A stretch of 64,000 bases of DNA from Magnolia sinica (lineage: Eukaryota; Streptophyta; Magnoliopsida; Magnoliales; Magnoliaceae), in the NCBI RefSeq assembly GCF_029962835.1, contig NC_080586.1, positions 63,744,001-63,808,000 of the forward strand, read 5' to 3'. The notes under the pieces are model-generated. The model was not told where the DNA came from, made no database searches, and saw only the letters and a list, made by a program, of their open reading frames with translations. Every line of letters starts with the position of its first letter. Within the stretch, counting starts at the first letter, position 1. Position numbers and translations under genes: made by a program. Shown piece by piece: positions 16,506-55,560 of the stretch.

Positions 16506-17130
16506 TATATCCATGCTATCCATCCGTTTCTCTATCTAATTTAAGGGGTTGAGCCCCAAATTGAAGCATATGAAAATATGAAGTGGATCATACCACGGGA
16601 AACAGTGAGCATAATGAGTTTTTAGTTTGCCCTGCTGATTTTCTAGTTTGTTCCACTCAATTTCATATTTGCTGAAAGTGCATGGGTGGATATATAACAT
16701 GCTTTGTAATTTTGGTGGATGATGAAATGAACTTTATACTTTGTCCCACTGTATTTTCAGTTTTTCTCGCTCAATTTCCAGTTTGGCCCGCTCAATTTCC
16801 AGTTTGGCCCGCTCAATTTTCAGTTTTTCTCGCTCAATTTTCAATTTGGCCCGCTCAATTTTCAGTTTCGCCCACTCAATTTTCAGTTTGTCCCGCTCAA
16901 TTTCCAGTTTGGCCCGCTCAATTTCCAGTTTGCTCCACTCAATTTCCAGTTTGGCCCGCAGTACATCCACGCCATCCATCAATTCTTTCATCTAGTTTAA
17001 GTGATTTAGCCCCAAATTGAAGCATATCAAAAGATCAAGTGGATCATACCACCGGAAACAGTGGGCATAATGATTTCCACCATTGAAACCATAGTGGGCC
17101 CAACAGTGATGTTTGTTTGTTATCACATCT
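16506..17130. mobile_element. MITE half repeated on both sides of a minisatellite
   Basis: CCCCAAATTGAAGCATAT followed by AAGTGGATCATACCAC and GGAAACAGTG occurs at about 16553-16606 and again at about 17012-17066. The 21-bp array (16741-16960) lies between these two direct copies. Only the left-type half of a MITE interior is recognisable. Confidence 0.6.
16741..16960. repeat. 21-bp minisatellite, class 1 (about 10 units)
   Basis: The unit is CTCAATTTCCAGTTTG plus a variable five-base segment such as GCCCG. On the minus strand the array is one open frame of heptads of the type AKLEIER / DKLKIER. The leader GGTGGATGATGAAATGAACT just before it is shared with the array at 21378, so the two arrays are paralogous. 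Confidence 0.95.
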
Positions 17131-17913
17131 TACTTTTTTAAGAATTATGTGAATGAACTGCTTCGAACATAGAATAAGTAGCCTAACGTACTTTTTTATT
17201 GTCTATATAAATTGGCTTATGTAATCACTATTTGTGAAGAAAAAAGAGTCTATATTCTTTAGCACACATATAAATACCATGATCAAGTATACCTTTCAAA
17301 TGATGCAAAATCTTTTTCTCTACTTGTAAATGAATCTAACTTAGAAATTTCATGTGGTAATTAAGTAATTCCACAATAACAAGATGTGTAGGTTAGTATA
17401 AGTTAAGTATTTAAAACTTCTAATCAACAACTTGAAACCCTTTAGGATCTATTAGATTGTTTTTCTTGTCGTTGCTCAATTTCAATGTAATTTCCATGAG
17501 TATGCACACTAATTTAGAATTTTTCATCTCAACGATTTTTAGAGTTTCATGAATATACGTGTTCTCGAATGTAAAAATTACATCATCTATTTAATTTATC
17601 CTGATTCAAGATAATATGCCATAAGACCCACATTTATCATTTCAAATTTACGAAGTAGCCTTTATAAACTTATCAACCATAACACTATCATTGTCTATGA
17701 ATATTAGATCACCAATGCATAAGGATGTCAATAATACATCACCATGGTCATTGTGTTAACATGGATAACATGCTTATTGGGATAACTTGTTTGTTTGTTA
17801 TCAAACCTATTCATAAGATCATAGATACATTGTTTTCAATTATGTCTGATTTTGTCCACTATGTTTATCTTGTGAATTTTATGTTTGATATGTTTTTCAA
17901 TTCATCTCTGCAG
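17131..17913. other. AT-rich DNA upstream of the DUF1985-Ulp1 gene
   Basis: No recognisable exon. TTCATCTCTGCAG at the right edge is a good splice acceptor for the first recognisable exon of the next gene, so an unseen 5' exon or promoter may lie here. Confidence 0.45.
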
Positions 17914-20802
17914 GCGACGAATATTTTGTCGTAATCTCCAACCCAACATCTAGGTGTACACTGACATGGTGGTTTGACAAGGTGAAAGGTGGAGTAGAGA
18001 AGCACAATAGTCGACTAAATTTGTTTAGGCAATCCCCTTTCTCGTTTCTATTGCATATTACATCCTTTAAATTTATAGGGGCTCTATTTCACCTTCTTCT
18101 TGTAAGATACAAAGGTGATCTAGTATTTGAGATCAGGGGGAGGCGATTGCAGTTTACCAAGATACACTTCGCCCTCATTATCGGTCTTAAGACTAGAGAT
18201 CTTACTGTACCAAATATTTCTTGCACTACGAGTACATTAAGAGACAAATACTTTAAAGAATATCCAGTATTAAAGAAGCACCTAAGAATGTGTTTGAGAG
18301 ATTAGTTGACATCAATGAGCATGAGGATGTCGTGAGGGTTGCCCTACTTCTAGTTGTGGAGTACTTTCTTAGGGGAAACAAACCGAAAACCAAGTGCAAC
18401 ATGGATTATATTTACCTGGTGGACTCGCTAGATGATTTCTATAGGTATCCCTGGGGTAGTTTGGGATACAATACAATGTTGCAAGGAATCAAATCTACCG
18501 TTGCCGCATCAAGTTCCCCTCGGTACACTGTGTATGGTTGCGTCCTTCCTCTACAAGTAAGAACACCTTTTATTTTCTATATGTTTTCCCTCTATAGTCA
18601 ATTTTAGATTTTTAACCGGGTGCAATTTCATTCTAACAGGTATGGGCAGTAGAGATATTACCGGCCCTTCAAGAGTGTGTTGTTTCATATGTTCCCCATC
18701 AAATTCCACGCTTCATTCAATATCGAGGCTGGAAGGGTTGGAGGTACAAGAGAATACATGTTATTTTCGAGAGTAGAGCTGTAAGTTTATATATATCTCT
18801 TCCATTTACTTTGCTTAACTTGACGTATACGCTTTTATATTTAACATTACTCTTTGTTCTTTTACAGACATCAGTAGTAATGAAATTAAAACTAACGCTA
18901 CGAGAATGGGAAACGGATGCCGTTCGCTTAGTGCGTGACAGTTTCCAGGTGAGATGTTATGAAAAATGAACAATATTTTATCTACCATTGTTAAGTTATC
19001 CTTACTCTGACATATCCATGTATACATTTTGCAGCTCACTGGGACCCAGGAAGATGATGAGGAGGATGAGGAGGGTAATGAGATTGATCATGAGGAAGAT
19101 GATGAGTCAAATGATAACGATGAGAAAGACGTGGAGGGAGAGGGGTCGAAGGTGGGTATTATGAAGAATGTTCTTTTGATGGAGGAATGTCGGATTGAGA
19201 GGGAAGAGTTGAAGAAGGAGAAGAGGAATTGAAGAAGGAGAGGGACGAGTTGAGAAAAGAGAGGGAAGAGATAAGGAGGAAAGAAGCAATGTTTGATGAA
19301 AGGGAGACCTTAAAGAGAGAGGAATTGAAGAAGGAGAGGGACGAATTGAGAAAAGAGAGGGAAGAAATAAGGAGGAAAGAAGCAATGTTTGATGAGAGGG
19401 ATACCTTACTGAAAGAGAAACAACAATTGAAGAGGGAGAAGGATTTATTTTTTGAGGAGAAGGAAAAGTTAGTGAGTGAGAGGGAGGAGTTTAACGAGAA
19501 GGAAGGTAGTCGTACACAACAGGGACATTTTGTGATGGAGGAAGAGGGTGAGGAGTTTCGAAAGGGAGGGGAAGTAAATGATATTGACGATAAAGAACTT
19601 GGATATGGGGATCTGGATGTGCAATCGTATAGTAATGCCAAAGGTAATGTATTGAATGCATCCACTTCTCATCCCGTTTATGAAAGAAGAACCAAAAGGA
19701 TACCGAAGCCGTCATATTATAAGATGTCTCCGTACTTGTCCCTGTCTACATTCGACACAACCCATGGGGCGGTTCCTGAACCCAACCAAGTAACTGCTTT
19801 TACTACGTCTCCAATACCATTTCCTCTACATATGGATCCTTTCAGAGCATTATTCGCACATGAGGTAAAATAGGTAGAGGACTGGTATGAAGCAAACAAG
19901 GACATGCCAGCATGGAAATGGTTCAGTACAATATGGATGAAGGATGCATGGGTTGATAGCGAGGTAAGCATTACTAATTTATTTTCTATATGCATTGATT
20001 GACATATAATTAATTGTTATATTAATCTATGACTAAATTGTACTATCCTATAAATTAAGCTATCGACTCATACATCGAGTTCCTTGAGAAAAGGCATAAT
20101 GACCTTTTAATAGCATATTGTCAGGATTGTAAGTTCTGTCCTACGTATTTTACGGCAACTGTTTATTTTGCCAATCCTTAATCTATTTGAAGATTTTATT
20201 TTCTTAAATGTATTGAACTTTGATCATGTTTGTAATAGCAAAGCCTTGAGGGGTGTTTGCCAGTTTTGATCGTATATCGGGCCTCGAAATCGATATCAGA
20301 ACGGGTCTCGCAAATAGGCCAGCTAACCACGGCTTATGCAATTGCCAAGCAACGAGATAAACCATACACCAAAGCGATTTGGTGTTATGAACGGATAATT
20401 CACTTGTCACAGAACATCATCTCTTACTGTTATGTGTTCTATTATGTTTTGACTAATATATTATTTTATGAATCATGGACAGGTCTATGCGCCCATAAAT
20501 CATGAAAATTCACATTGGTTTTTGTTGGTCATCTATCCTAGAGTAAGAGAAATTGTTGTTGTGGATAGCTTATGCACAAATGTAATACGAAGTATAAGCA
20601 GCAGATGAAGAACATAACTGATGCACTCCTTATTCTCTTCCATGCCACTGGAGACAGCACCGCACTTGAAGGGAAGAATTGGTCCATCAGAGTGGATGAA
20701 TTTGCGCTGAAGCAGCACAATGGTTTTAACTACGGCATATTCGTAATGAAATTCATCGACATTTTATGTAGTGGTCTCACCTTGGCGGGAACAGACATGT
20801 AA
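17914..20802 (+). pseudogene. DUF1985-Ulp1 (C48 peptidase-like) transposon gene, decayed
   Basis: The first recognisable exon follows a CAG acceptor at 17911-17913 and gives a DUF1985 domain, with motifs FIGALFHLLLVRYKGDL, FALIIGLKTRDL and, after a frameshift near 18280-18292, VALLLVVEYFLRGN and DDFYRYPWGSLGYNTM. Donor/acceptor pairs follow at about 18556/18639, 18780/18868 and 18947/19034. The next exon is acidic, then a charged coiled coil (19170-19500, tandem ELKKERDELRKEREEIRRKE repeats) with a second frameshift near 19228. A TAG interrupts the frame near 19871. The C-terminal part is a C48/Ulp1 fold: His in NSHWFLLVIY, Asp in IVVVDSL (exon from 20483), frameshift near 20572, then KQHNGFNYGIFV. 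The usual motif there is DCG, so the catalytic Cys reads Tyr. Such genes are plant transposon passengers, often in Mutator-like elements. Several lesions make a working protein very unlikely. Confidence 0.8.
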
Positions 20803-21018: not shown

Positions 21019-21300
21019 CAGCAAATTTCCATGTATGTGCATTTCAGTCCAAGTTCCTTCTCTAATCACGATGGCCTTGGCAGGGTTGATTCGAGGGATT
21101 GGTTAGCTGTAAAAGGGTCGATTAAAACTATATTGGGTTATCTTGCTGGTTCTGAAATCATTATGCTAGCCAGCAAGATAACCCAATATAGTTTTAATCG
21201 GCCCTTTTGCAATCAACCCATCCCTCGGATCAACCCTCTCAAGGCTATCATGATTAGAGAAAGAACTCGGACTGAAATGCACATACTTGGAAATTTGCTG
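21019..21300. repeat. Long hairpin: 131-nt arms, 20-nt loop
   Basis: Positions 21019-21149 are the inverse of 21170-21300 without a gap (every pair sums to 42319). I count about 14 mismatches in 131 positions, several of which would be G-U pairs in RNA. The inner 26 bp (ATTAAAACTATATTGGGTTA..., ending CTTGCTGG) is perfect. It lies between the Ulp1 pseudogene and the 21-bp array and ends exactly where the array's leader (CATATTTGC..., then CATGGGTGG) begins. Confidence 0.9.
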
Positions 21301-21377
21301 CATATTTGCCAGAAGTACATGGGTGGAAGTATATCATACTATGTAATTTTGGTGGATGATGAAATGAACTTTGTACT

Positions 21378-21852
21378 TTGTCCCACTGTATTTTCAGTTT
21401 GTCCTGCTCAATTTCTAGTTTGTCCAGCTCAATTTCTAGTTTCGCTCGCTCAATTTCCAGTTTGCAAAGCTCAATTTCCAGTTTGGCCTGCTCAATTTTT
21501 AGTTTGTCCCGCTCAATTTCCAGTTTCGCCTGCTCAATTTTCAGTTTGCAAAGCTCAATTTTCAGTTTGTCCCGCTCAATTTCCAGTTTGGCCGGCACAA
21601 TTTCCGGTTTGGCCCGCTCAATTTCCAATTTAGCCCGCTCAATGTCCAGTTTGCAAATCTCAATTTCCAGTTTGTCTCGCTCAATTTTCAGTTTGGTCCG
21701 CTCAATTCCCAGTTTGTCATGTTCAATTTCCAGTTTGGCCCACTCAATTTCCAGTTTGGTCCGCTCAATTCCCAGTTTGGCTCGCTCAATTTCCAGTTTG
21801 GCCCGCTCAATTTTCAGTTGTCCCGCTCAATTTCTAGTTTGGCCCGCTCAAT
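21378..21852. repeat. 21-bp minisatellite, class 1 (about 22 units)
   Basis: Units of CTCAATTTCCAGTTTG plus a five-base variable part. One unit near 21820 is 20 bp. A TTTGCAAA variant recurs at units 3, 7 and 12. On the minus strand an open heptad frame (KLEIERDKLKIEL) runs to the leader. The array passes directly into the next repeat without a spacer. Confidence 0.95.
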
Positions 21853-22200
21853 TTACGGTCAATTCACTTCACTTCACAGTCATTTCCATGCATTTCACAG
21901 TCATTCCCGGCGATTCTGTGTTGATTCACGGTCACTTCCATGCATTTCATGGTCAACTCCCTTCACTTCACGGTCATTTCCACACATTTCATGGTCAATT
22001 CGCTCCACTTCATGGTCATTTCGATGCATTTCATGGTCAATCCCGACGATTCCCTTCACTTCATGGTCATTTCCATGCATTTCACGATCAATTCCCTTCA
22101 CTTCATGGTCATTTCCATGCATTTCACGTTCAATTTTGGTGATTTCGTTTCATTTCACGGTCAATTCCCTTCACTTCACGATCATTTCCATGCATTTTTT
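21853..22200. repeat. Inverted copies of the 136-bp satellite sub-units (class 2)
   Basis: TTCACGGTCATTTCCATGCA-type sub-units on the plus strand are the inverse of the GACCGTGA sub-units at 995-2810. The 31-bp landmark (CCCGGCGATTCTGTGTTGAT) appears once near 21906. The 136-bp order is irregular here. Confidence 0.9.
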
Positions 22201-22329
22201 TCTAAACAAACAAGCTAAAATATAAGACAACTACTCCATTACAAGTCGTATTTTGTATCAAGCAATTTATTTGGGAGAGGGAAATCCGACATATCTTGTT
22301 AGCTTGAGGGGAGGCATTGGAATTTCCTT

Positions 22330-22925
22330 TGCCTTCAACACAAATGATCTGCACTCAAATATAATTAATTTATAAGGAACATATATATAATCGGGTTCGT
22401 GTTGGGTCAGGCAACTCGAGACCTCAACCCAAGCCCAACCCAAGTTTTATCGGGTTGGTGTTTGTATGGCCCAACCCTAAGACCAAACTCAATACATCCT
22501 GCCCAAGCCCAACCCAACGTCGGGTCGGTCGGCCTGCCCAAATTTTAGCCCTAAAATCATATATGGTACGTCAAGTAACTAATTTTGGTTTAGAAGATAT
22601 TCTTATTATATAAATAAAGAAAGAAATGAAAAAAAAGATATAATTTTTTTTATATGCTTATATATACATATTTATATAAATATGTGTTAGAGAAAAATGT
22701 AGGTAGAATAAAATTCTCCATGTAAAAAAAGAAAAAAGAAAAAGGATACGGATACAGTTATAGCTACGGTTATAATCCGTAGCCATAGATCGGGGGGTGG
22801 AATCGCAAAATCCGCAATTGATAGCCGATTGGGACAGCGACTTGCGGTGGAATCGCGGGAGCTGCGATGGATCGCCGAGCTATGGGTATGGCTACCGTTA
22901 TAATCCGTAGCCATAGGTTCTTTCC
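22330..22925. repeat. Composite repeat copy B (GGGTTG-rich, AT-rich, TAGCTACGG parts)
   Basis: In order: a pyrimidine-rich AACCCAAGCCCAACCC segment (22390-22550), the AT-rich arm with TTTTGGTTTAGAAGATATTC (22560-22730), and the TAGCTACGG element (22746-22920; CTACGGTTATAATCCGTAGC at left, inverted type at right). The interior has GGGACAGCGACTTGCGGTGG. The same parts occur in reverse order at 32518-33200 and 48091-48770. Confidence 0.75.
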
Positions 22926-22965
22926 TCTTTCATTTTTTTTCCTTTTTTTTTATTATTGTAATTCC

Positions 22966-23262
22966 CACCGCCTTTTGTGGGTCCTATCATGAGGTTTGTG
23001 TTATATCCAACCGTCCATCTATTTGACGAGCTCATATTAAGGCTTGAGACGAAAAATAAGATAGATCTAACTATCAAGTAGACCACACTGTAAAAGGCAA
23101 TGGGGAATTGAACGTCTACCATTGAAACCCTTTTAGGGGTTATAGAAGATTTGGATCATTATGAAATTTGTTTTTCTTCTTCATCCAGGTCTTTGTGACC
23201 CTATGAATGAACTTAGATGGGGAGGATTTCTCACAAACATCACAGTGGGCCCCCGAAAATTT
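22966..23262. mobile_element. Truncated MITE, sister of 3460-3920
   Basis: GGGTCCTATCATGAGG and AATAAGATAGATCTAACTATC match the 3460 element. The right part switches to GGATTTCTCACAAACATCAC, the family II end, so this copy is a junction of two families or a deletion product. Confidence 0.55.
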
Positions 23263-23287
23263 TTTAATGGTCGAAGCTCATTCAACA

Positions 23288-23400
23288 TTATTTCTAGTTT
23301 GTCTCGCTCAATTTCCAGTTTAGCCCGCTCAATTTCCAATTTCGCCCGATCAATTTCCAGTTTGTCCCGCTCAATTTCCAATTCATGTCCCCCTCAATTT
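23288..23400. repeat. 21-bp minisatellite, class 1 (about 5 units), with class 2 remnant at 23681-23743
   Basis: CTCAATTTCCAGTTT units abut the truncated MITE directly. A separate 60-bp remnant at 23681-23743 has ATGCATTTCTCGGTCATTTCC and CTTCACGGTCAATCCCGCCG of the 136-bp satellite. Confidence 0.85.
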
Positions 23401-23743
23401 CTACTTTTCGAAATTCCTACATTCTACAAGTTCTCCAGATGCAAATAACTGAAAAATCATGAAAACATGTCATTTGACATAAATCACTATGCATGCTTCA
23501 AAAAATCAGTACAGTGCAAGGCTTATCGATGGGATTAAAGGGTAGAAAATGTACTTTTGTGAGATTTGCTAGTCCCTATAGGAAAAACAGTTGCTTATAG
23601 TTTTTCTCTGAGTTATTGAATGAATGATTGTAATAAGATTAGTAGTGAAAGTAAAGTCTTATTTAGGTACATTTGCCATGCATTTCTCGGTCATTTCCCT
23701 TCCCTTCACGGTCAATCCCGCCGATTCCATGCATTTCTAGTGA

Positions 23744-24520: not shown

Positions 24521-24533
24521 TTCCAGTGGTTTC

Positions 24534-25107: not shown

Positions 25108-25119
25108 TCATTGACTCAC

Positions 25120-25491
25120 TGTGAAGATGAAGTTATAACCACATCTAAGAACATCAGCAAGGAAGATAGTTCTCCTCCACATCATTTTAATAAAATCACC
25201 CGACATGTATAATTTCTCTCCAGTGAAATCTACATCGTCCGTAACAAGTTTGTAGCAATGCAGGTGTAGGAGATTGCACTGATCAAAGGATGTCTGGTCG
25301 ACAGCGACGAGGAGGAGGTGACTAAGCAAGAACTCAGTATTTTCGCCTAACCGAAAGCTTTCAATGAAAATATATAGCATGCCCTTCTCTTCAGCGTATG
25401 CTCTGTTTATGATAACAATTATCAGAGTCCTGTTGCTCATAGAAACCCCGTCTAAAGCTGTTTCCAGTTCATCTTTTGAGATAATTGTTGT
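25120..25491 (-). pseudogene. Orphan exon of a nucleotide-diphospho-sugar transferase family gene
   Basis: An internal exon of 124 codons with good borders: acceptor TTTTCAG just before 25491 and donor ACA|GTGAGT at 25119. The protein matches the family of plant type-II membrane sugar transferases (DUF273 / GT77-like). Recognisable parts are ISKDELETAL near the start, LYIFIESFRLGE, LLSHLLLVAVDQTSF, LHCYKLVTDDVDFTGEK and MMWRRTIFLADVLRCGYNF at the end. In the family the next exon begins with the DxD metal-binding motif that holds UDP-sugar, and the upstream exon encodes the membrane anchor. Neither was found nearby, so this is a single exon, either captured by a transposon or left from a broken gene. 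No stop or frameshift lies within it, so it may be young or part of a gene with large introns. Confidence 0.7.
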
Positions 25492-25584
25492 CTGAAAATC
25501 CATGAAAGAATAACTTCAATATGTAAATTGGATAAAAATAATTGAGATTTTGCGGGCACCCCCGTGGTCACCAAAGTGGGGCCC

Positions 25585-26157: not shown

Positions 26158-27399
26158 ATGGCCCTTCTTGGAGCTATCGCCTCGTTCTTCTCCTTTTCAT
26201 TGATCCTTTCCCTCATGGGAAAGAGGAGGGTGACTCCCGAGGAGGCAGGGCCGAGCTGGGCTAGGTGCGCGCGAATGGAGAGTGAGCTGAAGCTAGCAAT
26301 AGCTCCTAGTGCCGCGGAGCCAAGCCATGAGAGGCGATCGAAGAGGAATCACAATGAAAATGAAAAGATGGCTCCTCCCACGCACCCCAAGGTGAACCTA
26401 GGGAAATTTCGAAATCGAAAAGTCGTGTTTGAGGTCTCCGTCGAAGACAAGTTCTTTGGCGAGTTCGAGTTACTCGACTGTCTCTTGCACAACGATTGGG
26501 CACACATGTTTGTGGGTAATTATCACTTTGATGCGGGCTTGGTAAGGTCCTTCTACTCTGTAATTCGTAGGGCAAGTATGAACCCGTTAGGGTTCGATAT
26601 CCCTTTTGACGGGTAGACGGTCCGTGTTAACATACAAGTCATCTCCAAGATCCTCGGCGCCCCTCTAGGGAAAGTGCATATTAATGTGAAAAATATGAAG
26701 AAGAAACAAGATAGGGATGAGCGAATTATGCACCTGTGTGGGAAGCTGGTCAAGTGGAAGCATGGCAGCAGCGTGGCTGCTTCCAAGCTGCTCTTCCCGT
26801 ATCGACTACTCCACCACATTTGTACGTACAACCTATATCCAAGGACTAGCAACTGGACTGAGTGCAACCGTTTCATGATTAAGCTCCTCTACCAAGTGGG
26901 CCAGGAAGCACAAGTATGTCTCCCCACCATTGTGCTTACCCATATCATAAAGGCAGCGACATCGACTCGGAAAAATGCAGCACTTCCATTTGGTCGCTTA
27001 ATCTGTAGGCTTGCCCGCAAGTACGGGATCAAGGGATCCAATAGGGACCCCGAGCCTGTGAAATTCATCGATGAAACTACGATCAACCATATGAATATTG
27101 GCTCAAAACTCAAGATGCCGAGGCTCGAAAAAAATGGGGATGAGATCGAAGAGGAAGAAGAAGAGGAGAGCGATGAAGAAGAAGAAGAAAGTGATGAGGA
27201 AGAGGAATCCGAAAAGGAAAGGGAAAACGAGACACCTCTTGCCTTACAAGAAATATGAGAGCTCTACCAATCGCTTGATGCAAGGATGGAGAGACAAGAG
27301 AAGCTGGGTAAGAAGCTCTACCGCACAGTAAAAGCAGTCTCGTGCTGTGTACAGAAAGAGGGAGCACCCCCTCTTTTGCCTGACTCTGAGGACCAGTAG
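26158..27399 (+). pseudogene. Plant transposon protein (PF20167-type), two premature stops
   Basis: A single frame from ATG 26158 to TAG 27397-27399 (413 codons) is broken only by TAG at 26614-26616 and TGA at 27256-27258. It begins MALLGAIASFFSFSLILSLM, then a basic stretch, then the globular part: KVNLGKFRNRKVVFEVSVED, LLHNDWAHMFVGNYHFDAGL, VRSFYSV, KILGAPLGKVHI, YRLLHHICTYNLYPRTSNWT and FGRLICRLARKYGIKG. An Asp/Glu-rich tract (27145-27230) and a short helical tail follow. This matches the putative plant transposon protein family; its biochemical role is not known. A homologue with the same start, core, acidic tract and tail lies at 40805-42077 inside the LTR retrotransposon, so this copy probably came from a related element whose LTRs I could not place. 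Confidence 0.75.
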
Positions 27400-35505: not shown

Positions 35506-35510
35506 TGATG

Positions 35511-40487: not shown

Positions 40488-40804
40488 TCCCTATATATAA
40501 CATAGGGTGCAACCCAAGTCAGATTCAGCATGCCGACTAACTCAACCACACAGTATTCACACATACTTTAAAGAAACTTCATGCATTTCATTTACCAAAA
40601 TTGTCACAATTACATGAAATACGACATTACATGAATCATGACAGGAAATGCATATGAGCTATTACAAGCAAGGCTGCAAACACTAAAACATACTAACAAA
40701 CATAAACACACTTTCTACCTACAATACTACTAGGCCCATAAACATTGAAACACAAACATCCCTAAACAACAACAAAACAAGCTACAGTGCAACGACATGG
40801 ATGA

Positions 40805-42882: not shown

Positions 42883-42894
42883 GCTTTGATACCA
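42883..42894 (-). promoter_or_regulatory. Primer-binding site, initiator tRNA-Met type
   Basis: On the minus strand TGGTATCAAAGC starts three bases inside the 5' LTR. The usual site is TGGTATCAGAGC, so there is one mismatch. It fixes the orientation of the element. Confidence 0.85.
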
Positions 42895-42897
42895 ACT

Positions 42898-45189
42898 TAT
42901 AACGCCCTGAAAATTGGGGGTCGAGCAGGTACCCAACTCCCGAGTTCCAACACATCACTTATGCAACAAATATAATGATGATTTGATGTTGTCCATGTTA
43001 GTTCATAAAACATGAATGAGATTAATCTAAATCAGCGAATCATACTCCTGGGACAGTTGAATTTGGCAAGTGGAAGACTGTGATAAGGGGATACCATATA
43101 TATACCATTATAGGTCCCCAAAGTATGAACACATTGCCAGGTTAAATAGTTATAAGTACTGTTTCAAAATACAAAATGTCCATAAGAAATGATGGTCCAC
43201 TACAAGTATAAGCCCTGAAGCCCCGTCGATTCAGAACGGTCTATGTAAACCCGCCTGAATACTACATGTAAGAGAATACCTCCTCATCATCCTCGAAGTC
43301 CGGCTCCGCCTCACAGGCACGCCATCATCTGAACCTACAACATGGTCTAGTTGGTATTTAAAACACCATCCCGTAACGTGGGAGTGAGTGATTAACTCAG
43401 TGGAACAATAAAGCAAAGGTTAACATGTTATCAATTCAGTCAAGCAGTAATGATGAAGCAGCACAATCAAACATCCCTAAATACTCTGATTAATGCAAGA
43501 ATAATATGAAATAATGATGCATGCCCTCGCCTACTTTCCCTCAGCGACTTCATCTCATGATCGCGGCATGCAACCCTTCCTCAGTGCTTGACCTGCTACG
43601 CCAAACGCACACGTAATGCGGTGCATGGACATGATTACCGAATTTCTTATTAGACTTTTTTCATATAGCAGGATTGGGAAGCTAAGGTACCTCCCTTATA
43701 TCAATTCTCAAACGATGATCCATTCTAGGGTTATCACTCCTAGAAAATTTCATACGATGTTACGGTTCTATGTCACTGCAAAGGGCTCGTCACCTTATTA
43801 GTGCAGGCCTAGTATGTACTCTTATTGCTACGTAAAGGCTCGTCGCCTCTACGCGGTCTTAGAGTACGCTCGAGGTCACTACAAAGGACTCGTTACCTTA
43901 TCAATGTAGGCTGACAACTTGAATACAGTGTCCCATACCACCGTATTCGGTTCACGAGGCTGTGTTACTCACTGAACACTATGAGGAGGCTCATCACCCC
44001 AGCGTAGGTCGACAACTTGACCACGGTGTCCCATACCACCATGCCCGGCTTATGAGTCTTAGCGGATCAAGATACTACGGTTAAAGGGGTTTTCACTGGT
44101 GAGTTTGGTACCTTAGATTCAAGTAGTAACGTCCATACATGGTGAACATACATTGGGTCAATCGGGTTACTTGACGAGCTCGACTAGTACAAGCGCACAT
44201 AAACTTAATTGACATGGAGTGCATAAGCATTCCACGTGGCCTAGCCACTGTCGTCAAGTGACGTATGACTCGGATTCGTCGAACGCATCTGTCATGGCTA
44301 AAACAGTTCAGTCACCGGTCTTAAATCATTACCGATTGCCTGGACTACTACGTAATCCCAAACACACTCTAGATCAATAGCATTCAAATGTAATAGCCAA
44401 GACAGCATGTAATAATATAATTAAATATAGATCCCATATTAACATTTCAATGAACACATAGAATACATGTTAACATACATGAGCATTTAATTCACAAATC
44501 ACATAGTAGTAAAATAGACTACATGAAGGAAACTGTAACCCTAGATAAGGGGATTGAGAATCCTATCTCAACACCCTCATTAATCACATTACATTAAGCA
44601 TTTTCTCACTCAAGCATTTTATCAAACACTTAGACTACACATATTACGTACATGTAATAAGTTAGTTAAAATGCACATCGTAGTAAATCCTTCCACATAG
44701 GAGTTGCCACACGTACAACCATCATATATCCTCACACATAAATCATGGCAATCACAAATCATGAATCCATATTCATTTAGTCATTTCAACAAACACTGAG
44801 AATGCATTAAAATCAACATAGTTTACACCTATGTATAATATACGGGAAACATCGTGTCTAAGTATATGAGATAGCAATCAAGTGAGTCATAAATCATTAC
44901 TGACATTGAAAGCCTTGAAAACCATAACCTAAACATTTATAGTCCGCACCTTATGCTGGTAAACGCGTATCGAACTTAGTTTGTATAACGAGTCTATGTC
45001 TACGGTACCACAACAACCTATATCAGGGAATAGGTCAGCTATTTCATCTATTACAATAGTTGAAAACCCTAAAACAAGTTAGGGTTAGGATTCCTTACCC
45101 AAGTACGGAATTAGAATTGCCCGTATAGCAATACAGATAGGGTGGTTAAGTACGTGGAGCAACGAGATCAAATCCCAGGATGAATCTCC

Positions 45190-45225
<36 letters not shown>

Positions 45226-46083
45226 TTTCCTTTTCCTTTTCCTCTCCTTCTTAGGGTTTAAAATTCGTATGGAATATAAGAGAGAGGGTTTAAGGCCCTT
45301 ATATAGGCCCAGGTCTGATGGACATGGCCCCAGGGCCAAGGTATACTTAGGTTATATTCAAAGGGCGTCTGTTTCAGCCCAACGGAGCACTTCTGGTAGC
45401 TCCTTTTTCACGTGTAGTTTAACTTAAGCTCCCTGACCATGGATCTAGGTTGGCTGAGTTTTCACTTCGATCAGGTTTATAGATCGAGCGTGGCGGACCA
45501 GTTTCAATTCAACGGTCACCGTCACTCGATCAGGGCCACAAGTATATTGCCATGTATGAGAAATTTCTCCTGATCTGATGGTATATTTGGGTCAGATTCT
45601 GACGGTCTAAATCCATATATTTGGCCCACAAGCGACACGGCTCAGTTTACTTAAATTTAAAATTTATTTCTAAAGATATTCATGTTTCTCACACACTTTG
45701 CTCCGGGCTCAAGTTGTGCATTTTTAAACACAATTAAGACTTAATTTTCGAGGGGGTTGTCAAGTCCAGTAATGCGGTCATAGCTGTATAGTTTTACGAT
45801 TATCAGACTTTCGACGTGCGGTCCAGGTCTGATACGGAGTTTCAGTGTGCTCCCGAGAGCAACCGAGTTTAGGAATGGATTCTAGATTTCAGGGTAATAT
45901 AGCATCAATGACCTGCACGGTTTGGATCCTGCAGATCATATTTAAAGGGATTAGTGCTAATTTCATAAGTACTCTAGTTTAGCACTTGCTAATATTAACC
46001 TAATTTCTAAAGGTTTCGGTCCTGGGTGATTTCTGTCTGAGGTGGTACTCGGGTCCTTGTACGGATTTTTCTAAGATGTTACA
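42898..46083 (-). repeat. 5' LTR (3.19 kb)
   Basis: It matches 36807-39989 along its whole length. In about 180 bases compared at the left end I see roughly a dozen differences, so the insertion is not recent. The first bases read TATAAC where the other LTR has TGTAAC, a change in the terminal dinucleotide. Its CT microsatellite (45193-45222) is longer than in the other LTR. Confidence 0.93.
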
Positions 46084-48090: not shown

Positions 48091-49130
48091 GATTTACTTT
48101 TTATAGATATGTGTTAGAGAAAAATTGCATTCAAATTGATATGTGTTAGAGAATAAAATTCTCCATGTAAAAGGAAAAAAATTGGAATACGCTTATAGCT
48201 ACGGTTATAATCTGTAGCCATAGATCGTTGAACCTGACAGCGAGTTTGGGTGGAATCATGGAATCCGCGATTGATCGCCGATCGTCACAGTGACTTGCGG
48301 TGGAATCGTAGGATCCGCGAATGATCGCCAAGGTGCGGATTGTCTATAGCTACGGATTAAAACCGTAGTGATATCCGTATCCATTTTTTTTTATATGGAG
48401 AATTTTATTCCACCTACACATATTTATATAAATATGTATATATAAGCATATAAATAAAAATTTTAACTCTTTTATCTTCATTTATTTCTTTAATCATATA
48501 ACAAGAATATCTTCTAAACCAAAATTAGTTACTTGACGTATCATATATGATTTTATGGCTGAAAGTTGGGCGAGTTCAACCTGACCAAAATGTGATCGAC
48601 CCAACATTAGGTTGGGCTTGGACAGGATGTTATGGGAGTTGGTCTTGCGGTTGGGCCGTACAAACTCCAACCCAATAAAACTTAGGTTGGGCTCGGGTTA
48701 AGGTCTCGGGTTGCCTGACCCAACACGAACCCAACTAATATATAAGTTCCTTATAAAGCAATTTATAATTGAGTGCAGATCATTTGTGTTGAAGGCAAAG
48801 GAAATTTCAATGCCGACTGCTTTTAATGGTCCACATCATTTTCGGTGACTCATCTCACATGTAGACTCCTACATGTCAATATCACATCTGGGGACAACAT
48901 ATACATTGACTTCCCATTCCAAAGTGAAATGAGAAACGGAATCGCCAGGATTGATCGTGACATGCATAGAAATGACCTTGAAAATCTTTGAACTGGGAGT
49001 TATTTTAAAAATCCAAACATGATGGGACCTTGAAAATCTTGGAATTTTGGATAAGAAACAAAAAATCAAAACATAATGGGACCCACGACAAGAACACATC
49101 ATTATGGGCTATTGTGCTAAGCTCATAATG
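48091..49130. repeat. Composite repeat copy D
   Basis: Same order as copy C: GTGTTAGAGAAAAATTGC, TAGCTACGG element (48188-48385), AT-rich arm, GGTTGGGCTCGGGTT segment (48600-48730) and the 200-base unit with GAAACGGAATCGCC near 48935. Copy D has a 25-base insertion near 48125 that repeats GATATGTGTTAGAGA. Confidence 0.8.
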
Positions 49131-49655
49131 AGCGGGCCAAACTGGAAATTGAGCGGGCAAACATGGAAATGAGCGAGACAAACTGGAAATTGAGCGGGCC
49201 AAATTGAAAATTGAGTGGGACAAACTAGAAATTGAGCGGGCCAAATTGGAAATTGAGCGGGCCAAACTGAAAATTGAGCGGGCAAACATGGAAATGAGCA
49301 GGACAAACTAGAATTTCAGCGGGCCAAATTGAAAATTGAGTGGGCCAAACTAGAAATTGAGCGAGACAAACTGGAAGTTGAGTGTGCCAAACTGAAAATT
49401 GAGCGAACCAAACTGGAAATTGAGCTGGCCAAACTAGAAATTGAGCAGGTAAACATGGAGATGAGCGGGACAAACTAGAATTTCAGCAGGCCAAACTGGA
49501 AATTGAGTGGGATAAACTGGAAATTGAGTGGGCCAAACTGGAAATTGAGCAGCCAAACATGAAATTGAGAGGGACAAACTAGAATTTCAATGTTCCAAAT
49601 TGGAAATTGAGCAGAACAAACTGGAAATTGAGCGGGCCAAACTAAAATTGTGGAA
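49128..49655. repeat. 21-bp minisatellite, class 1 (about 24 units)
   Basis: GAGCGGGCCAAACTGG plus AAATT units on the plus strand. It sits at the same place as the 33546 array after the duplicated block, but the order of unit variants differs, so the array has changed since the duplication. Confidence 0.95.
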
Positions 49656-50270
49656 GTTGCAACTCAAATTGCCCTGGGTATACTTCTAAATTCAAATCAG
49701 CCATTTGAAACTAGTGAGGTACTAACAACAACTAAGTTACAGTGCTGAGTTGTAGTCAATGGGTAACAGGCAGTGTAGTAATGTGATTGTTCTGGTATGC
49801 TTCCCATATCCACCAATTCGTCCTTTTTCTCGTTACACTTTTCTTTTTTCTTTTATAGGTACAGATTCTACCAAAGAAAGCAGCTGTTGTACAGGCCATT
49901 TATATCTCAAATTATCATGACTGAATCTTTTGTAACTTTTCCTTAGTTCTGTCACATGGTTTATTGGAATGTTCTTTTGCCATTTTTCCACATATGTTGG
50001 CTTCACTTAGTTGACTTTCTTAACCAAATGTACCTTTTCTTTTGTGTTTCTTTTCTTTTCTGCTCATTTTTTTTTGTTTTTTAACATTACTCTTAATTTC
50101 CTTTATTCCATTGTCATCTTTGTATCATCGTGTAATTGTCCAGCCTTAGTTTTATGCTTAGGTGCTCTTGGCAACTTGGTTTTACACAGTAGATTTTGAA
50201 CAGGGCTCCTTATGCTTATGTCGAAGACTTAGACTATCATATCAGTGTCAATATATTACAACATAAGAAA
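49656..50270. other. No gene seen
   Basis: Mixed DNA with T-rich runs. TTTTATAGGTACAGATTCTA near 49853 is acceptor-like, but no exon is recognised. Confidence 0.35.
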
Positions 50271-50273
50271 TTA

Positions 50274-50350
50274 AGTGAGGCAGCATAAGAAATTCAGTAC
50301 GACAAACTAAAAATGAGCTCGACAACTTAAAAATTGAGCGAGACAACCAA
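50274..50350. repeat. Degenerate 21-bp minisatellite, class 3 (about 4 units)
   Basis: AGTACGACAAACTAAAAATG, GAGCTCGACAACTTAAAAATT and GAGCGAGACAACC follow at about 21-base steps, allowing gaps. It stands just past the 3' end of the transposase on the minus strand. Confidence 0.65.
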
Positions 50351-50421
50351 AAGATTATTGCATAAGAGGAAATATATTACAACATATATCATACAAAACA
50401 CTAAATAAATTACAAAGTATA

Positions 50422-52824
50422 CTACACATCAGGTATGGGAAACTTGCACGTCTAGCGATTATGCCCGGATTGTTTGCATCGACCGCACTTTAATGTTTTC
50501 GATTCTTCTCCACGCGAGGGAATTCTTAACTTTTTTGGTCTTCCAGATGGCCTCTTCTATCCTGGGGGTTTAATTTTCGCACAATACTCCTTGAAGCCAT
50601 CTGTAATCTCCCATTCGCTCATGTCACGTACTGGGTACACCGATTCATTATATGTGCTTAAGTAATTTTGTGTTGTATAGAATGGGGAGTAGTATGAGTA
50701 ATGAGGAAGATTGTAGTTTATACACGCAGACAGGACATGCATACAAGGGTACCCCTTCATGTCAAACACATGACATGTACATGAAAGCGAGCTGAGCTTG
50801 ACTGTATCATTATAATCTCCCACGACATAGTACTCATCTCAAGAAATCAGATGACAGCGAACATCTCGCACCTTCTGTATAAGATCCTTCAACTATTGCT
50901 CCGCTCATGGTGTCAACGGACTTACAAATGAGGCTGCAGATTCTCTTCTCTTATAAAATAATTCTTGTATCTTACATCTTACGGCCTCTATCAATTTAGT
51001 AAGAGGGTATTCCCGTGCTTCTTTGAAGAGGGTGTTAACACACTCGGATATGTTTGTGGTGACCAAGTTGAATCTTTTACCTGGAAAGTGCGAAGATGCC
51101 CATTTTTCGTAGCCAATTTCTGTCAGCCATGCATGTACTGGGGGGTTGGCCATTTCAATATCATACATTAATTTTTCAAATTTAGCCCTCCTGCAAGTCT
51201 TAACTGCCTACCAGTAGTATATCCCCAATGACTTGTCTTTAAAGGTGTCCACCAAGTTTCTATAAATATGGTATGCACAATACCCATGAATTGCATGTGG
51301 GAATACTTAGGGAACCTCTTTCATTAAACCTTTATGTTGATCGAAAATAATCACAATACTCTCCAGATACCCTAACGCATCATTAAGGTAGGTAAGGAAC
51401 CAATTCCAACTCAGGCTGTTCTCTGATTCCTTGATGCCAAACGCAATTGGAAATATATGATTGTCCCCATCTAAGGCTGTGGCGATGAATAGAATACCCT
51501 TGTATTTACCCTTTACGTGTGTCCCGTCAATGGCTAATACGCTCCGTATAGAATTCTGAAAACTTCGAACACATCATCCAAGTGCTACAAAACACCTCTC
51601 AAACCTCCAAGTCTCTTGGTTAACAAGCACGATAGTCACCGTCCCCGGGTTGACCATCCTCAACTCATGCAAATATAAGGGGAGTTGATTGTAAGAGTCT
51701 TTGTAAGAACCCATCATCTGATTAATTGTAAGCTCCTTAGCTTTCCATGCCTTCCTATAACTGATAAAAATATTATATTTCTCTTGCATAGTGAAGATAA
51801 TATCACGTGGCCTCAAACCTAACCATTGCTCAATGCGGCTAACAACCAAATCACACGCTAACTTACTGATTCCTTGCTGGTGATCACTCTTCATCCACGA
51901 CATGCCGCATGTGTGTTCTGACATATAACTCTATATCTTGAATATCCCAGTATCATTCACCCGAGTTGAGTCAACCCTCCAGTCGCATTTATCTTCAAAG
52001 CACACCACGCTAAATCTGTTAGAATTTAAGTACAATACCTTATACTGGAATTTATTGCAAATTGCAAATTGGCTTAGAACATACTGGCATCAACTCTTGT
52101 CCTTAAATGTTTCTCTAACAGCTATATCAATCGGTTCACCCAACGAATCTGTATATTCCAGCAGTGCTGCATTGGTGAATGCTGCATCATCAAATGGCAC
52201 GGGAACTTGACGAGTGATGAAGTTTCCGCTTTCAGCAAGATCTGGAAGCGAAATGTCACTTACATGTACAGCTCGGGTGGTGGATGATGATGGCAGATCT
52301 GCTGTTGTTGCTGAAGGCGGTTCCATGTACTCATAAGTGAGGTTAAGGTCATGTGCCTAGCTGACTTGGCTACTCACAAAGTTTGATGTTTGAGGCGGCT
52401 CGGGCAGTTGATCGTTGCTCACTACCACTTGTAATAGAGATGCCCTGTATTCAAATTCCACACCATGCTCCTTAAGCAAGCTATCTATGTGTGTTGTCCT
52501 ATTAATGTGTTGCATTGTCTCAATGACTAAGGGAATGAATTTATCCGAATGCTCTAACTGTGTTGCCAGGAACTCTCGCACATCATCGTCATCTGCGATT
52601 ACAGTTGGAGGGATTGATTCATTTATGCAAGGATACATTACTTTCATCCTAATATCACAATCTATTGGTTGACTCTTAATAATCCTGTAAATTCTAGATA
52701 GAAGCTCCTCATACGTAGTCTTGACATGTAGCGAAAAAGTTTTCGAATCCCCACCAATGTACGAGTATCGCTTGTTCTCATATTCAATCTTCCCGCCATA
52801 ACAACAGATGATTCTCGTAGACAT
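50422..52824 (-). pseudogene. MuDR-like (MULE) transposase, 11 nonsense codons, no frameshift
   Basis: One frame of 801 codons from ATG 52824 to TAG 50422-50424. Domains in order: the plant MuDR N-terminal part (MSTRIICCYGGKIEYENKRY), a Ser/Pro-rich linker, a MuDR DNA-binding region (FAICNKFQYKV, CFEDKCDWRV, SYMSEHTCG), the RPRDIIFTM and ISYRKAWKAKE stretch, the MULE catalytic domain (AIDGTHVKGKYKGILFIATA, then IVIIFDQHKGL with the second Asp), NISECVNTLFKEAREYPLT, a SWIM zinc finger (CTCHVFDMKGYPCMHVLSAC) and a CCHC knuckle (CGRCKQSGHN...TC). Premature stops: 52357, 52090, 51931, 51574, 51307, 51208, 50905, 50893, 50839, 50557 and 50452 (lowest base of each codon). A splice acceptor (TTTTCAG) precedes the ATG. 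The protein would bind element ends and cut and join DNA, but this copy cannot make it. Confidence 0.88.
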
Positions 52825-54635
52825 TATCTGAAAACCAATACAATGACATTATATTAGTGAATCATTAAGCAATGGAAGCTTGCCATAAGATAAAGCTCGA
52901 TTAAATAATAGAGAAGCGAGTACTCACGTTCCATAATAAATGACGATGATACATACTTAAGGAACTAAAATGTAAGCAATGCGTTAAATTTTTTTAAATA
53001 AACAAGAAGAGCTTATATAGATTACAAATTCAGAGATAGAAATGATTTCATGTGGTGCTTGTTAAATTCAGCGATGCTATCTATCATGGAATATTCATAT
53101 AGTCTTCTATTTTAATAAGGGACAATTCTATGATGGCCTAGTACACTTTAAAAAAATATATACAAACCTAACATTTCTACATGAGGATTTGGGTTTAAAA
53201 TATGTTAAACTTACATATATTTTCAAAGATAGTCTCAACAAGCAAAGTCTAGGGTTGAAATTTCACCTAAAATTTCACTATTAATTATTTTTAATTGTTA
53301 GAACATACGAGAGATGTTGTTTCTGATCAACGAGATGTATTTGGGGATTCGAAATACAAAATCCTAGTCTCAATATGCTCCATTTAGAGCTGGAATTTTT
53401 TTCTCAAACCTTTATACATTCGCTCCTAGTTAGTGCTAATTGCTAAAAGTTATGAGAAATATCATCTCTAACTAATGAGATTTCTTAGTGAATTTTCATT
53501 TTTAACTCCTAGTGTGGGTTTTAAGTGTAGGGAGTGCTTAAATTTGATCTAATGTACAATGTAATGGGTAAGGAACTGCTTACAATGTATAAACTCATTT
53601 CACCTACTGTCTACTAAGTGTCTTCGCAATGTCATTTCAATTAAGGAAAATTATGGTAAAATTCATATCCTAAGTTGCTAAAAAGTTCATTGGAGGTCAA
53701 GTTCAAGGAACATTCTTGTTTAGTCTAATATACATCATAGCAGTTTGTTTGTTCTCCCATAATTCCTAAGTTTAGTTCTAAGTTCAAACAATCATTCTAA
53801 AAGTTTTTAATGGGGACCAAGGTTTTGTTCCTAGGTTTCATGGTTATGCAGGTAATCTCCTAGAGAACTTAAAATATTGAGTCCCTATCTTCTCAAATGT
53901 CATAATTTCAAAGTGATTCCAACCAAGTTTGAATGGCTATTCTAATGATTTCAAGGGAACCTAAGTTTCATTTCTACATTGAAACAACTAAATCTGAAAT
54001 TTCCTAAGGGTCCTAAACTTTTACGTCTCTAGGTTCGCAATTTTTCTTCTTCTGAGGGAATTCTATATAGGTTCAATTAGCTATTCTAGTAACTGGAGCA
54101 GCATGTGGCTTACATTAAGCACCCGGTAAAGCTCATATGTCATGGGTGGATGTTATGCATCATGGCATCATGGTACCCACGTACATCCCTTAAATTTTGG
54201 TCAGATTGCTCTTTAAATTGTACATATTATCAAATCATGATATTAAACATCAACACATGAATTTAACATGGATTCTTATAATTCCTCTAAGCTCAAATGA
54301 CGGCCCACAAACGTGTCATATCAATCTAAAGTATGGTTAAGCAATTTGGAATATTTAAAAGTTCATTCAACATTCAACAAATATTCCACATTGTATGCTT
54401 TATAAGACAAAATAAAATTTAATTTAACGGTTCATGTCATATCTACTAGAAATATACCTATATTTAAGTAATCACAAATGTACCATAAGGGGATACAAGG
54501 CTAAATTCTCTACACATGGTTAATTACAATTAGAGTAATAAGAATTTAAGCATTACATCATATATGTTAATACTAAATATCAAGCACTTGATAAATTTGA
54601 GCAAGCTTCGGATAAAATGGAATAAACCTCAACTA
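52825..54635. other. AT-rich DNA upstream of the transposase; no gene seen
   Basis: This would be the 5' region of the transposase gene on the minus strand. I looked for long terminal inverted repeats that pair with the other side of the gene and did not find them by eye. Confidence 0.4.
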
Positions 54636-55560
54636 AAATTAAGCGCGACAAAAATGGAAATCATTAAGGCAAACATGAAAATTCAGCGACGCAACCTATA
54701 AATTAAACGAGGCAAACTAGAAATTCAGTGACGTAGCCTATAAATTGAATGAGGCAAACTAGATATTCAATGAGGGAAAAGCGAAAGTTCAGCGAGACAG
54801 GCTAGAAATTGGGCAAGGCAAACTAAAAATTGAACGAGGGAAAAATGAAATCGATCGAGGGAAGTCCAAGTTTGAGCGACGCAAAAGAAATAATTGAGCA
54901 AGGGAAGCCTAGAAATTTAGCGACGTAATCTAGATTTTGAACGAGGCAAACTAGAAATTCAGCGAGGGAAGAGGGAAAATTGAGCGAGGTAAAGTATATA
55001 TTAAGTGAGGCAAACTGACATTTGAGTGAGGAAAGCTGAAATTGAGCATGGCAAACTGAAAATTAAGCGTGGCAAACTAGAAATTAAGCAATGCAAACAT
55101 GAAATTGAGTGAGACAAGAATGAAATTCATTGAGGCAAACATGAAATTTATCAATGCAAACATTAAATTGAGAGAGCCTAATATGAGATTGAGCTGGGCA
55201 AACATTAAATTGAGCAATTCTACCATGAAATTGAGTTGGGCGAACATTGAATTGAGCGAGCCTAGCATGAAATTGAGTTAGGCAAACATTGAATTGAGTG
55301 AGCCGACCATGAAATTGAGCTGGGCAAACATTGAATTGAGCAAGCCTAGCATTAAGTTGAGCTGGGCAAACATGAAATTAAGCGACTCTAAAATCAAATT
55401 GAGTGAGCCCTAAAATGAAATTGAGTGAGCTTCAAACGGAGTTAAACAAGTTTCACATGAATTTGAACGATCAACTCATAAAATTGACTAAGCCTAACAA
55501 ATGAAATTGTAAGAGCCTGACATGAAATTCACCGAACTTCACATAAAATTTGACGAGTAG
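54636..55560. repeat. 21-bp minisatellite, class 3 (about 43 units)
   Basis: Units such as AAATTGAGCGAGGCAAAC plus TAG or ATG/ATT. Between about 55060 and 55400 successive units are exactly 21 bp and give a heptad frame (MKLSETR MKFIEAN MKFINAN IKLREPN). Left of 55060 spacing is looser. The unit differs from class 1 at about 3 of 21 positions. Confidence 0.9.

Follow-up and report, generated by a model that had tools for sequence, protein, structure and literature searches.

Arrays of 21-bp repeats as subterminal and intergenic parts of a Mutator-like transposon family in Magnolia sinica

The 21-bp repeat arrays found in a 64,000-bp stretch of Magnolia sinica DNA (the whole stretch analysed, hereafter the window) are not free-standing minisatellites but parts of one mobile-element family. 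There is very little doubt that they are subterminal and intergenic parts of a Mutator-like transposon family whose members have long inverted ends and 9-bp target duplications, and puzzling minisatellites thereby become parts of one mobile family with ~2,900 ends genome-wide. The arrays resemble the landing sites by which related jumping genes switch off host silencing. By this analogy, we regard them as putative platforms recognised by the DUF1985-ULP1 protein of the element itself, with a probability of roughly one half for the whole chain including the mechanism.

The element, its ends and its arrays

A Mutator-like element (MULE) of 40,788 bp that has inverted ends and is flanked by a perfect 9-bp target duplication lies in the window, together with further terminal-repeat stretches:

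15442-15450, no strand: left target-site duplication, 9 bp, AACTAAGTA
15451-56238, no strand: complete Mutator-like element, 40,788 bp, termini GAGAAAATGACC...GGTCATTTTCTC
15451-15582, plus: left terminal inverted repeat, of which 15464-15582 shares 86.6% identity with the right repeat
56087-56238, minus: right terminal inverted repeat
56239-56247, no strand: right target-site duplication, 9 bp, AACTAAGTA
22200-23264, minus: right-hand terminal inverted repeat, inner stretches, terminal part missing
32903-33230, plus: left-hand terminal-repeat inner stretch, copy 1
48487-48814, plus: left-hand terminal-repeat inner stretch, copy 2
36807-46083, no strand: nested LTR retrotransposon, LTRs ~3.2 kb and 91.4% identical, 5-bp target duplication CCATT
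21019-21300, no strand: fold-back, a 131-bp inverted repeat between the ULP1 gene and an array
2800-3702, minus: inner terminal-repeat stretches adjoining the array at 992, a second, partial family copy

The traits of the Mutator superfamily are present: mudrA-type transposase domains, target duplications of ~9 bp and terminal inverted repeats, the last being usual, not universal. Comparison of six two-ended elements revealed target duplications matching at 9 of 9 positions in the window, L047 and L049, at 8 of 9 in L041 and L051, and at 7 of 9 in L034, while 30 mismatched end pairings gave a mean of 2.5 and a maximum of 5 of 9. The terminal repeats of L051 are 86.7% identical over the outermost 127 bp and 86.8% over a further 634 bp; those of L034 are 88% identical over the outermost 128 bp, with 492 bp at 84.8%.

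Arrays were detected with Tandem Repeats Finder (TRF) and a unit scan:

992-2807, plus: class-2 array lying beyond the 40.8-kb element, 58 units, with a 136-bp higher-order unit, TRF extent 995-2750
16629-16952, minus: class-1 array, 12 units, 1,178 bp inward of the left end, TRF extent 16753-16959
21380-21861, minus: class-1 array, 23 units, 584 bp past the last matched ULP1 piece, TRF extent 21377-21854
21864-22186, minus: class-2 array, 13 units, contiguous with the class-1 array
23301-23407, minus: class-1 array, 5 units, TRF extent 23290-23401
23675-23716, minus: class-2 fragment, 2 units
33555-34093, plus: class-1 array, 25 units, TRF extent 33553-34094
35505-35909, minus: class-1 array, 18 units, TRF extent 35513-35903
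49139-49638, plus: class-1 array, 23 units, TRF extent 49129-49650
50261-50344, plus: class-3 fragment, 2 units
54693-55388, plus: class-3 array, for which the widest scan gives 22 units, TRF extent 54667-55430

The initial annotation had named eleven array places. Arrays were found near all of these positions, but those at 23681 and 50274 are fragments of about two units only. Every named array except the one at 995 sits within the 40,788-bp element. The estimate that arrays take up about 5 kb agrees with the 5,192 bp of 64,000 covered by arrays of at least three units.

Both outermost arrays of the window element are oriented outward. At 24 measured ends, the first array starts at a median of 1,178 bp inward (range 640-4,896) and points outward at six. 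Arrays occur in inverted pairs adjoining the inner edge of the long terminal repeats: at 37 separate inner-repeat places (39 rows, of which two recur in overlapping loci), the nearest array within 1.5 kb points inward in 33 cases and the opposite way in two, and two places have none. On contig 1, for which 81 zero-mismatch ends were listed, 17 of 28 class-1 clusters are found inward of one of these ends at a distance of no more than 10 kb, the expectation being 0.006 per random point; on the outer side there is none within 10 kb and one at 20 kb. For the other 11 clusters, whose outer side lacks a listed end up to a distance of 10 kb, mismatched or lost ends may be the reason.

Unit length, sequence classes and core

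A strong preference for 21 bp over 20 or 22 bp, put up for testing in the initial annotation, was borne out. Across the window and 20 sampled loci of 10 kb, 916 of 1,301 core-to-core spacings are 21 bp, 67 are 20 bp and 16 are 22 bp. TRF reports a fundamental period of 21 for 100 of 132 family arrays, compared with 11 of 60 other arrays of the same loci, which served as the background. Several of these 11 are visibly family-like and were missed by the unit scan. The exact class-1 21-mer pattern occurs 818 + 854 times in the genome and the reversed pattern not once, so that the class-1 repeats are not due to chance. Off-register spacings of 24-39 bp gather at 29-34 bp (93/96 in class 2, 29/41 in class 1). 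Helical phasing is kept as a hint only, because the 31-bp step, seen in 14 sources, recurs within higher-order units that resemble one another, and internal near-repeats 8 and 10 bp long would suffice to yield the 29-34-bp steps.

By consensus comparison, classes 1 and 3 are related: they agree at 18 of 21 positions, as had been noted, and none of 200 shuffles was as good. The same holds for two further classes, c4 and c5, found in element L051 outside the window (0/200 shuffles for each). The single superfamily of the initial annotation can thus be kept for classes 1, 3, c4 and c5, but class 2 drops out of it by sequence. Its suggested kinship with class 1 (~15 of 21 positions with an offset) is unsupported, as shuffles were as good in 10/200 (c1-c2) and 143/200 (c1-c2b) cases; the figure for c3-c2 was 91/200. 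What links class 2 to class 1 is position, not sequence: many copies have it, oriented as class 1 is, in the interval that separates class 1 from the inner border of the terminal inverted repeat.

On contig 1 the array class goes with the subtype of the end, though the link is not clean. Class-1 sites were listed within 20 kb inward of 15/15 ATGA-type ends and 2/43 TTTA-type ends (Fisher 5e-12), and c5 sites at 0/15 and 24/43, respectively (Fisher 1e-4), both tests treating ends that belong to one element as independent observations. No c5 site was listed at 19/43 TTTA-type ends; TTxAGG-type ends have class 1 at 8/15 and c5 at 3/15, and eight further ends have neither.

Each unit consists of a conserved core and a loose linker. 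Core variability relative to the linker is 0.41x in class 1 and 0.22x in class 2 (bootstrap over sources 0.35-0.51 and 0.17-0.29), with core positions picked by eye and the contrast first noticed and then measured on the same units. Unit numbers differ widely between arrays, and frame-breaking steps occur within them.

The convergent gene pair

Remnants of two genes were found in the window element:

17889-20796, plus: DUF1985-coil (tandem peptide repeats)-ULP1 (peptidase C48) gene remnants, VANC/KIU-like, stop-interrupted
50560-52848, minus: mudrA-type transposase remnants in several frames, with DBD_Tnp_Mut, MULE and SWIM domains

As both genes are broken, the window copy makes neither protein. 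The transposase domains lie above the Pfam cut-off (PF03108, E 3.8e-8; PF10551, E 1.6e-12; PF04434, E 7.5e-8), and the pieces 50908-51207, 51577-51930 and 52360-52848 had no match in the domain search. On the opposite strand to mudrA, the other gene matched PF09331 (DUF1985) at 18257-18604 (E 1.4e-6, 28.8 bits) and PF02902 (ULP1) at 20453-20602 (E 1.5e-6); its pieces 17889-18302, 19199-19870, 20239-20502 and 20569-20796 had no match in the same search. All three DUF1985 matches obtained are half-domains (28.8, 21.6 and 29.5 bits; E 1.4e-6, 8.6e-7 and 2.2e-4) under Pfam's curated cut-off of 35.1, and PF02902 exceeds its cut-off in the window and L039. The gene extends into the coil and ULP1 domain in the window, L039 and L043. 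The window coil has a 96-bp (32-codon) unit in 1.9-2.3 copies in addition to 21-bp repeats, and 21-bp repeats were also found in the coil region of L039, L043 and L045. A derivation of class 1 from these coil repeats, suggested by an eye match, was rejected: the best match in the window gene was 14/21, equalled by 32/60 shuffles.

Many members of the family have a mudrA-type transposase gene convergent with a DUF1985 gene. Of the 150 DUF1985 places scored, 72 are no more than 50 kb from one of 150 scored transposase places, and 71 of the 72 pairs are convergent, as scored on DUF1985, not ULP1; shifted positions gave a mean of 1.0 and a maximum of 5. An array on the opposite strand lies beyond the final matched portion of the DUF1985 gene, at a distance of 584 bp in the window, 235 bp in L039, 225 bp in L043 and 1 bp in L045. 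In L047 the arrays share the strand of the DUF1985 gene, the ULP1 piece was not matched, and an array at 5460-6428 lies between DUF1985 and the transposase.

Possible role of the arrays and related systems

In the proposed mechanism, each unit's conserved core would be a binding site for the DUF1985-ULP1 protein, so that an array is bound repeatedly, in the manner of VANC proteins on Arabidopsis VANDALs. The bound protein would strip DNA methylation, perhaps aided by deSUMOylation via its ULP1 domain, and the loss of methylation would allow the element to transpose, along with its non-autonomous relatives. The 21-bp length would be the spacing between bound proteins, two helix turns. Slippage and unequal exchange would homogenise units within an array while whole arrays drift apart, and each subfamily would therefore end with its own motif class. 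Counted in favour of recognition are the end association, the link between class and subtype, the convergent gene pair, the array beyond the DUF1985 gene and the core conservation. Counted against it are the DUF1985 half-domains below cut-off, the long ends, the outward first arrays, the arrangement in L047, the clusters without ends, the unclean subtype link, the choice of core positions by eye on the units that were then measured, and the broken state of both genes in the window.

The initial annotation had spoken of a seven-codon unit, and a heptad frame KLEIER(A/D) does exist, but it bears little sign of coding constraint. If the unit encoded a heptad coiled coil, KLEIER-A/D, seven codons would fix its length. 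Open stretches in this frame are indeed long (e.g., 190 codons at 21254-21826, minus strand), and stop-making deviations are fewer than expected (52 versus 72). Nevertheless, in 924 units synonymous deviations are 1.08 and non-synonymous ones 0.96 of expectation, only 29/233 class-1 and 4/113 class-2 off-register spacings are multiples of three, and the arrays are no closer to the gene's own coil repeats than shuffles are. With these substitution ratios and frame-breaking spacings the coding heptad was rejected, and we consider it most improbable. The same variable unit numbers and frame-breaking steps would fit functionless minisatellites, which arose by an early 21-bp duplication in the element, grew by slippage and were spread by transposition; common descent would suffice for the shared length of classes 1, 3, c4 and c5. 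Against this stand the several-fold variability gap between core and linker positions and the 21-bp length of class 2, which is not detectably related to class 1 and adjoins it. These two observations do not exclude neutrality, because concerted evolution can mimic constraint, and we hold it to be improbable, far less so than coding.

Slightly ahead of neutrality, though still unlikely, we place foldback-type ends, in which the arrays would bind the element's transposase at multiple places and have a part in synapsis or specificity. The inverted array pairs at the inner edge of the long terminal repeats argue for it, and so do Tm1 and Muta1, Mutator-type elements described as having repeat-filled ends (PMC3169594, PMC5225508), and Galileo, whose end repeats are reported to be bound by its transposase domain (PMC3688188). 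The foldback trait of long inverted ends holding tandem repeats is present. The trait of repeats starting beside the terminus is absent at the 24 measured ends, where the distance is never below 640 bp, and further arrays are present in the stretch separating the DUF1985 gene from the transposase gene, as in L047.

Returning to recognition by the DUF1985-ULP1 protein, we suggest tentatively, and as less likely than not, that sequence-specific anti-silencing of the VANC type may occur outside Arabidopsis. It would employ a ULP1-fused protein and 21-bp arrays two helical turns apart, with subfamily-owned array sequences, two unrelated cores side by side in one end, and arrays and protein co-diversified across the ~2,900-end family. 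Were the mechanism true, the family would offer naturally occurring motif classes paired with their proteins for studying the joint change of transposon protein and target repeats, a question that published work addresses in Arabidopsis VANDALs. Among the matches listed, judged by title or the start of the abstract, there was no VANC/DUF1985-type tandem-repeat family outside Arabidopsis. The literature search returned no work on Mutator-like elements with tandem repeats in Magnolia, and none uniting Mutator-like elements, ULP1, terminal inverted repeats and tandem repeats.

The VANDALs (VANDAL21/Hi, VANDAL6) and the ULP1-fused KIU genes of Arabidopsis are alike in belonging to the Mutator superfamily, in a second gene, here of probable DUF1985 type, with tandem peptide repeats, and in non-coding tandem-repeat arrays whose motif varies by subfamily. 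KIU genes are described as ULP1-fused (PMC13317346), and the terminal repeats of VANC-bearing VANDALs as degenerate. In contrast, the ends here are long and inverted (86.6% over ~120 bp in the window), the units are 21 bp with two classes not detectably related, arrays occupy regular subterminal positions in addition to those between genes, and the anti-silencing is putative.

Galileo of Drosophila is not known to carry a DUF1985-ULP1 gene. It is described as alike in long inverted ends whose tandem repeats hold transposase-domain binding sites and as a member of the P superfamily, unlike the Mutator-type family here (PMC3688188). Tm1 of root-knot nematodes and Muta1 of mosquito share target duplications of 8-10 bp, tandem repeats inside long inverted ends and numerous non-autonomous copies. 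Their repeats of 13-15 bp (PMC3169594) and 12 bp (PMC5225508), respectively, lie near the terminus, whereas here they are 21 bp and begin ~1.2 kb inside, and a second gene of DUF1985-ULP1 type is added. One element can house both repeat-filled ends and an anti-silencing-type gene. The ULP1-bearing MULEs of grapevine, melon, rice and Arabidopsis also have ULP1 sequence downstream of mudrA; the word "tandem" is absent from the text on the grapevine elements (PMC2528002), as against the repeat arrays here. ULP1 is reported to be reversed relative to mudrA in KI-MULEs and in either orientation in grapevine (PMC2528002), and in the present family the DUF1985-transposase pairs are convergent in 71/72 cases.

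Repeat units and their classes

Arrays of one superfamily of 21-bp units had been reported in the initial annotation at eleven named places. Arrays are present there, although 23675-23716 and 50261-50344 are no more than fragments with roughly two units each, and the array total agrees with the earlier estimate, amounting to 5,192 bp when arrays of at least three units are counted. The strong preference for 21 bp is borne out: core-to-core spacings of classes 1 and 3 (n = 1,301) comprise 916 at 21 bp, 67 at 20 bp and 16 at 22 bp, and TRF assigned a fundamental period of 21 to 100 of 132 family arrays versus 11 of 60 non-family arrays of that sequence, whose periods range from 10 to 96 bp. The single superfamily stands for class 3, whose match with class 1 beats all 200 shuffles, and is not supported by sequence for class 2. 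The class 1 and class 2 consensus units do not agree detectably better than chance, being equalled by 10 of 200 shuffles for one class-2 consensus and by 143 of 200 for another, and the class 3 versus class 2 comparison was equalled by 91 of 200. Consensus units of c4 and c5, further classes from the sampled element L051, also matched class 1 better than all 200 shuffles. In a search of 1.84 billion bases (127 contigs), the exact class-1 pattern occurred 1,672 times and the reversed pattern, a control for chance, 0 times. The class-2 array at 992-2807 has a 136-bp higher-order unit built from 21-bp and 31-bp steps, and the 31-bp step was found again in 14 sources.

A Mutator-like family with arrays inside its ends

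Twenty 10-kb loci around class-1 pattern matches on contig 1 were sampled. Their arrays often form inverted pairs with class 1 inside and class 2 outside, and inverted repeats were present in all nine loci searched for them. Homology traced outward from the arrays ends at the terminus GAGAAAATGACCACTGTAGACAAAACC or a variant. In the window, ends at 15451 and 56238, flanked on both sides by AACTAAGTA, delimit one 40,788-bp element, which holds all named arrays but the class-2 array at 992-2807; the latter adjoins another, partial family copy. The element contains:

17889-20796, plus strand, remnants of a DUF1985-coil-ULP1 gene
50560-52848, minus strand, remnants of a mudrA-type transposase
36807-46083, a nested LTR retrotransposon with CCATT duplications

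Stop codons and frame changes disrupt both genes, and 8 of 18 window protein pieces scanned matched a Pfam family (E 0.01 or better). Inner pieces of the terminal repeat recur inside the element, each with an array. PF20167 (putative plant transposon protein) was matched by one of two ORF pieces scanned in the retrotransposon, at 21.8 bits where the cut-off is 45; further ORFs of this type lie at 26617-27255 and in the sampled locus L047, and sequence related to the retrotransposon recurs outside the element at 57164-59503. A fold-back segment with 131-bp arms (21019-21300) separates the end of the ULP1 gene from an array, and a shortened relative was seen by eye between the two arrays of locus L034 (5145-5345). 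Telomere-like plant-type repeats (AGGGTTT, 11.4 copies, 68% matches) occupy 60926-61018.

For six elements both ends were located, and their 9-bp target duplications match at 9 positions in the window, L047 and L049, 8 in L041 and L051, and 7 in L034, whereas none of 30 wrong pairings exceeded 5. The array-bearing elements are Mutator-like, and the family clearly belongs to the Mutator superfamily. Genome-wide, the end pattern gave 1,463 and 1,465 matches with at most two mismatches, and the reversed pattern gave none in the same search.

On contig 1, with 81 zero-mismatch ends listed, 17 of the 28 class-1 clusters are found inward of such an end by at most 10 kb and 0 outward of one (17 and 1 at 20 kb), the chance expectation being 0.006 per random point within 10 kb; the remaining 11 have no listed zero-mismatch end within 10 kb. 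The first array begins at a median of 1,178 bp inside the end (640 to 4,896; 24 measured ends) and is directed inward at 18 of 24 ends, the window's two outermost arrays not being so directed. At 37 distinct places matching the inner part of the terminal repeat (39 rows minus two repeats from overlapping loci), the closest array up to 1.5 kb away is directed inward at 33, the other way at 2 and is absent at 2; with a different inner segment it was inward at 6 of 8.

Array class follows the subtype of the end. Listed class-1 sites occur within 20 kb inward of 15/15 ATGA-type, 8/15 TTxAGG-type, 2/43 other TTTA-type and 0/8 remaining ends on contig 1, while the corresponding values for c5 are 0/15, 3/15, 24/43 and 0/8. 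Therefore, array class and element subtype diverged together, with some exceptions. Fisher values for this link are too strong, since each element contributes a dependent pair of ends. None of the eight ATTA/TTGACC-type ends on contig 1 has a listed site of class 1 or c5 in the 20 kb on its inward side, and these ends may bear another array class, so far unseen.

The DUF1985-transposase gene pair

Scoring covered 150 of 955 first-look DUF1985 candidates and 150 of 920 transposase candidates. A scored transposase place lies within 50 kb of 72 of the 150 DUF1985 places, with none among those listed for the other 78; 71 of these pairs converge and one has both genes on one strand, and when positions were shifted the mean was 1.0 pair and the maximum 5. 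The 8.6-kb element L047, whose target duplication is exact, combines DUF1985, the N-terminal transposase half and class-1 arrays; a ULP1 piece was not matched in it, and the arrays share a strand with the DUF1985 gene. Elsewhere an array on the opposite strand lies beyond the last matched part of this gene, by 584 bp in the window, 235 in L039, 225 in L043 and 1 in L045, where the matched part ends before ULP1.

The window also carries a fragment of a PF03407 nucleotide-diphospho-sugar transferase gene (25111-25515, minus strand, E 1.9e-16). The 40 genome matches include 13 places outside the window with 82-90% identity, and 11 of these have a listed MULE transposase or DUF1985 place no more than 50 kb away. 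For two copies at 43-47% no neighbour of this sort is listed, and they may be genes of the host itself; the fragment looks like a captured host gene piece that spread along with the family.

Possible function of the arrays

Arabidopsis VANC proteins, according to PMC5735166 and PMC10398659, have DUF1985 and tandem peptide motifs, bind short tandemly arrayed motifs in the non-coding parts of the VANDAL family they belong to, and strip its methylation; VANDAL arrays change rapidly from one family to the next. ULP1-fused versions are named KIU in PMC13317346. The Magnolia sinica family shares with this system the same parts and the link between subfamily and motif, and for that reason we hold it most likely, at a probability of about one half, that the 21-bp arrays serve as recognition platforms of VANC type, where binding and demethylation would take place. 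The degenerate ends of VANDALs are not shared, and DUF1985 half-domain matches score below the curated cut-off; therefore the family may work like a VANDAL and is not claimed to be one. This kind of system is already known. The accessible portions of the open-licence literature gave no example in which long repeat-filled ends go together with a DUF1985-ULP1 gene and with two 21-bp motif classes that lack a detectable relationship.

Array-filled ends could possibly be bound by the transposase itself, with Tm1, Muta1 and Galileo as comparable elements; however, the arrays sit ~1.2 kb inward from the ends, and also in the space separating genes. A coding role for the arrays is all but excluded. 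The seven-codon unit proposed earlier can be read in the frame KLEIER(A/D), but constraint on it is little: among 924 units, deviations reach 1.08 of expectation where synonymous, 0.96 where non-synonymous and 0.73 (52 versus 72) where they make stops, and the frame is preserved by no more than 29 of 233 off-register spacings. Neutral expansion is possible too, because concerted evolution can imitate constraint. The conserved core of the units, chosen after inspection of the data, covers positions 8-15 of AAACTGGAAATTGAGCGGGCC and in class 2 most of TGACCGTGAAATG; its variability is 0.41 times that of the linker, and 0.22 times in class 2.
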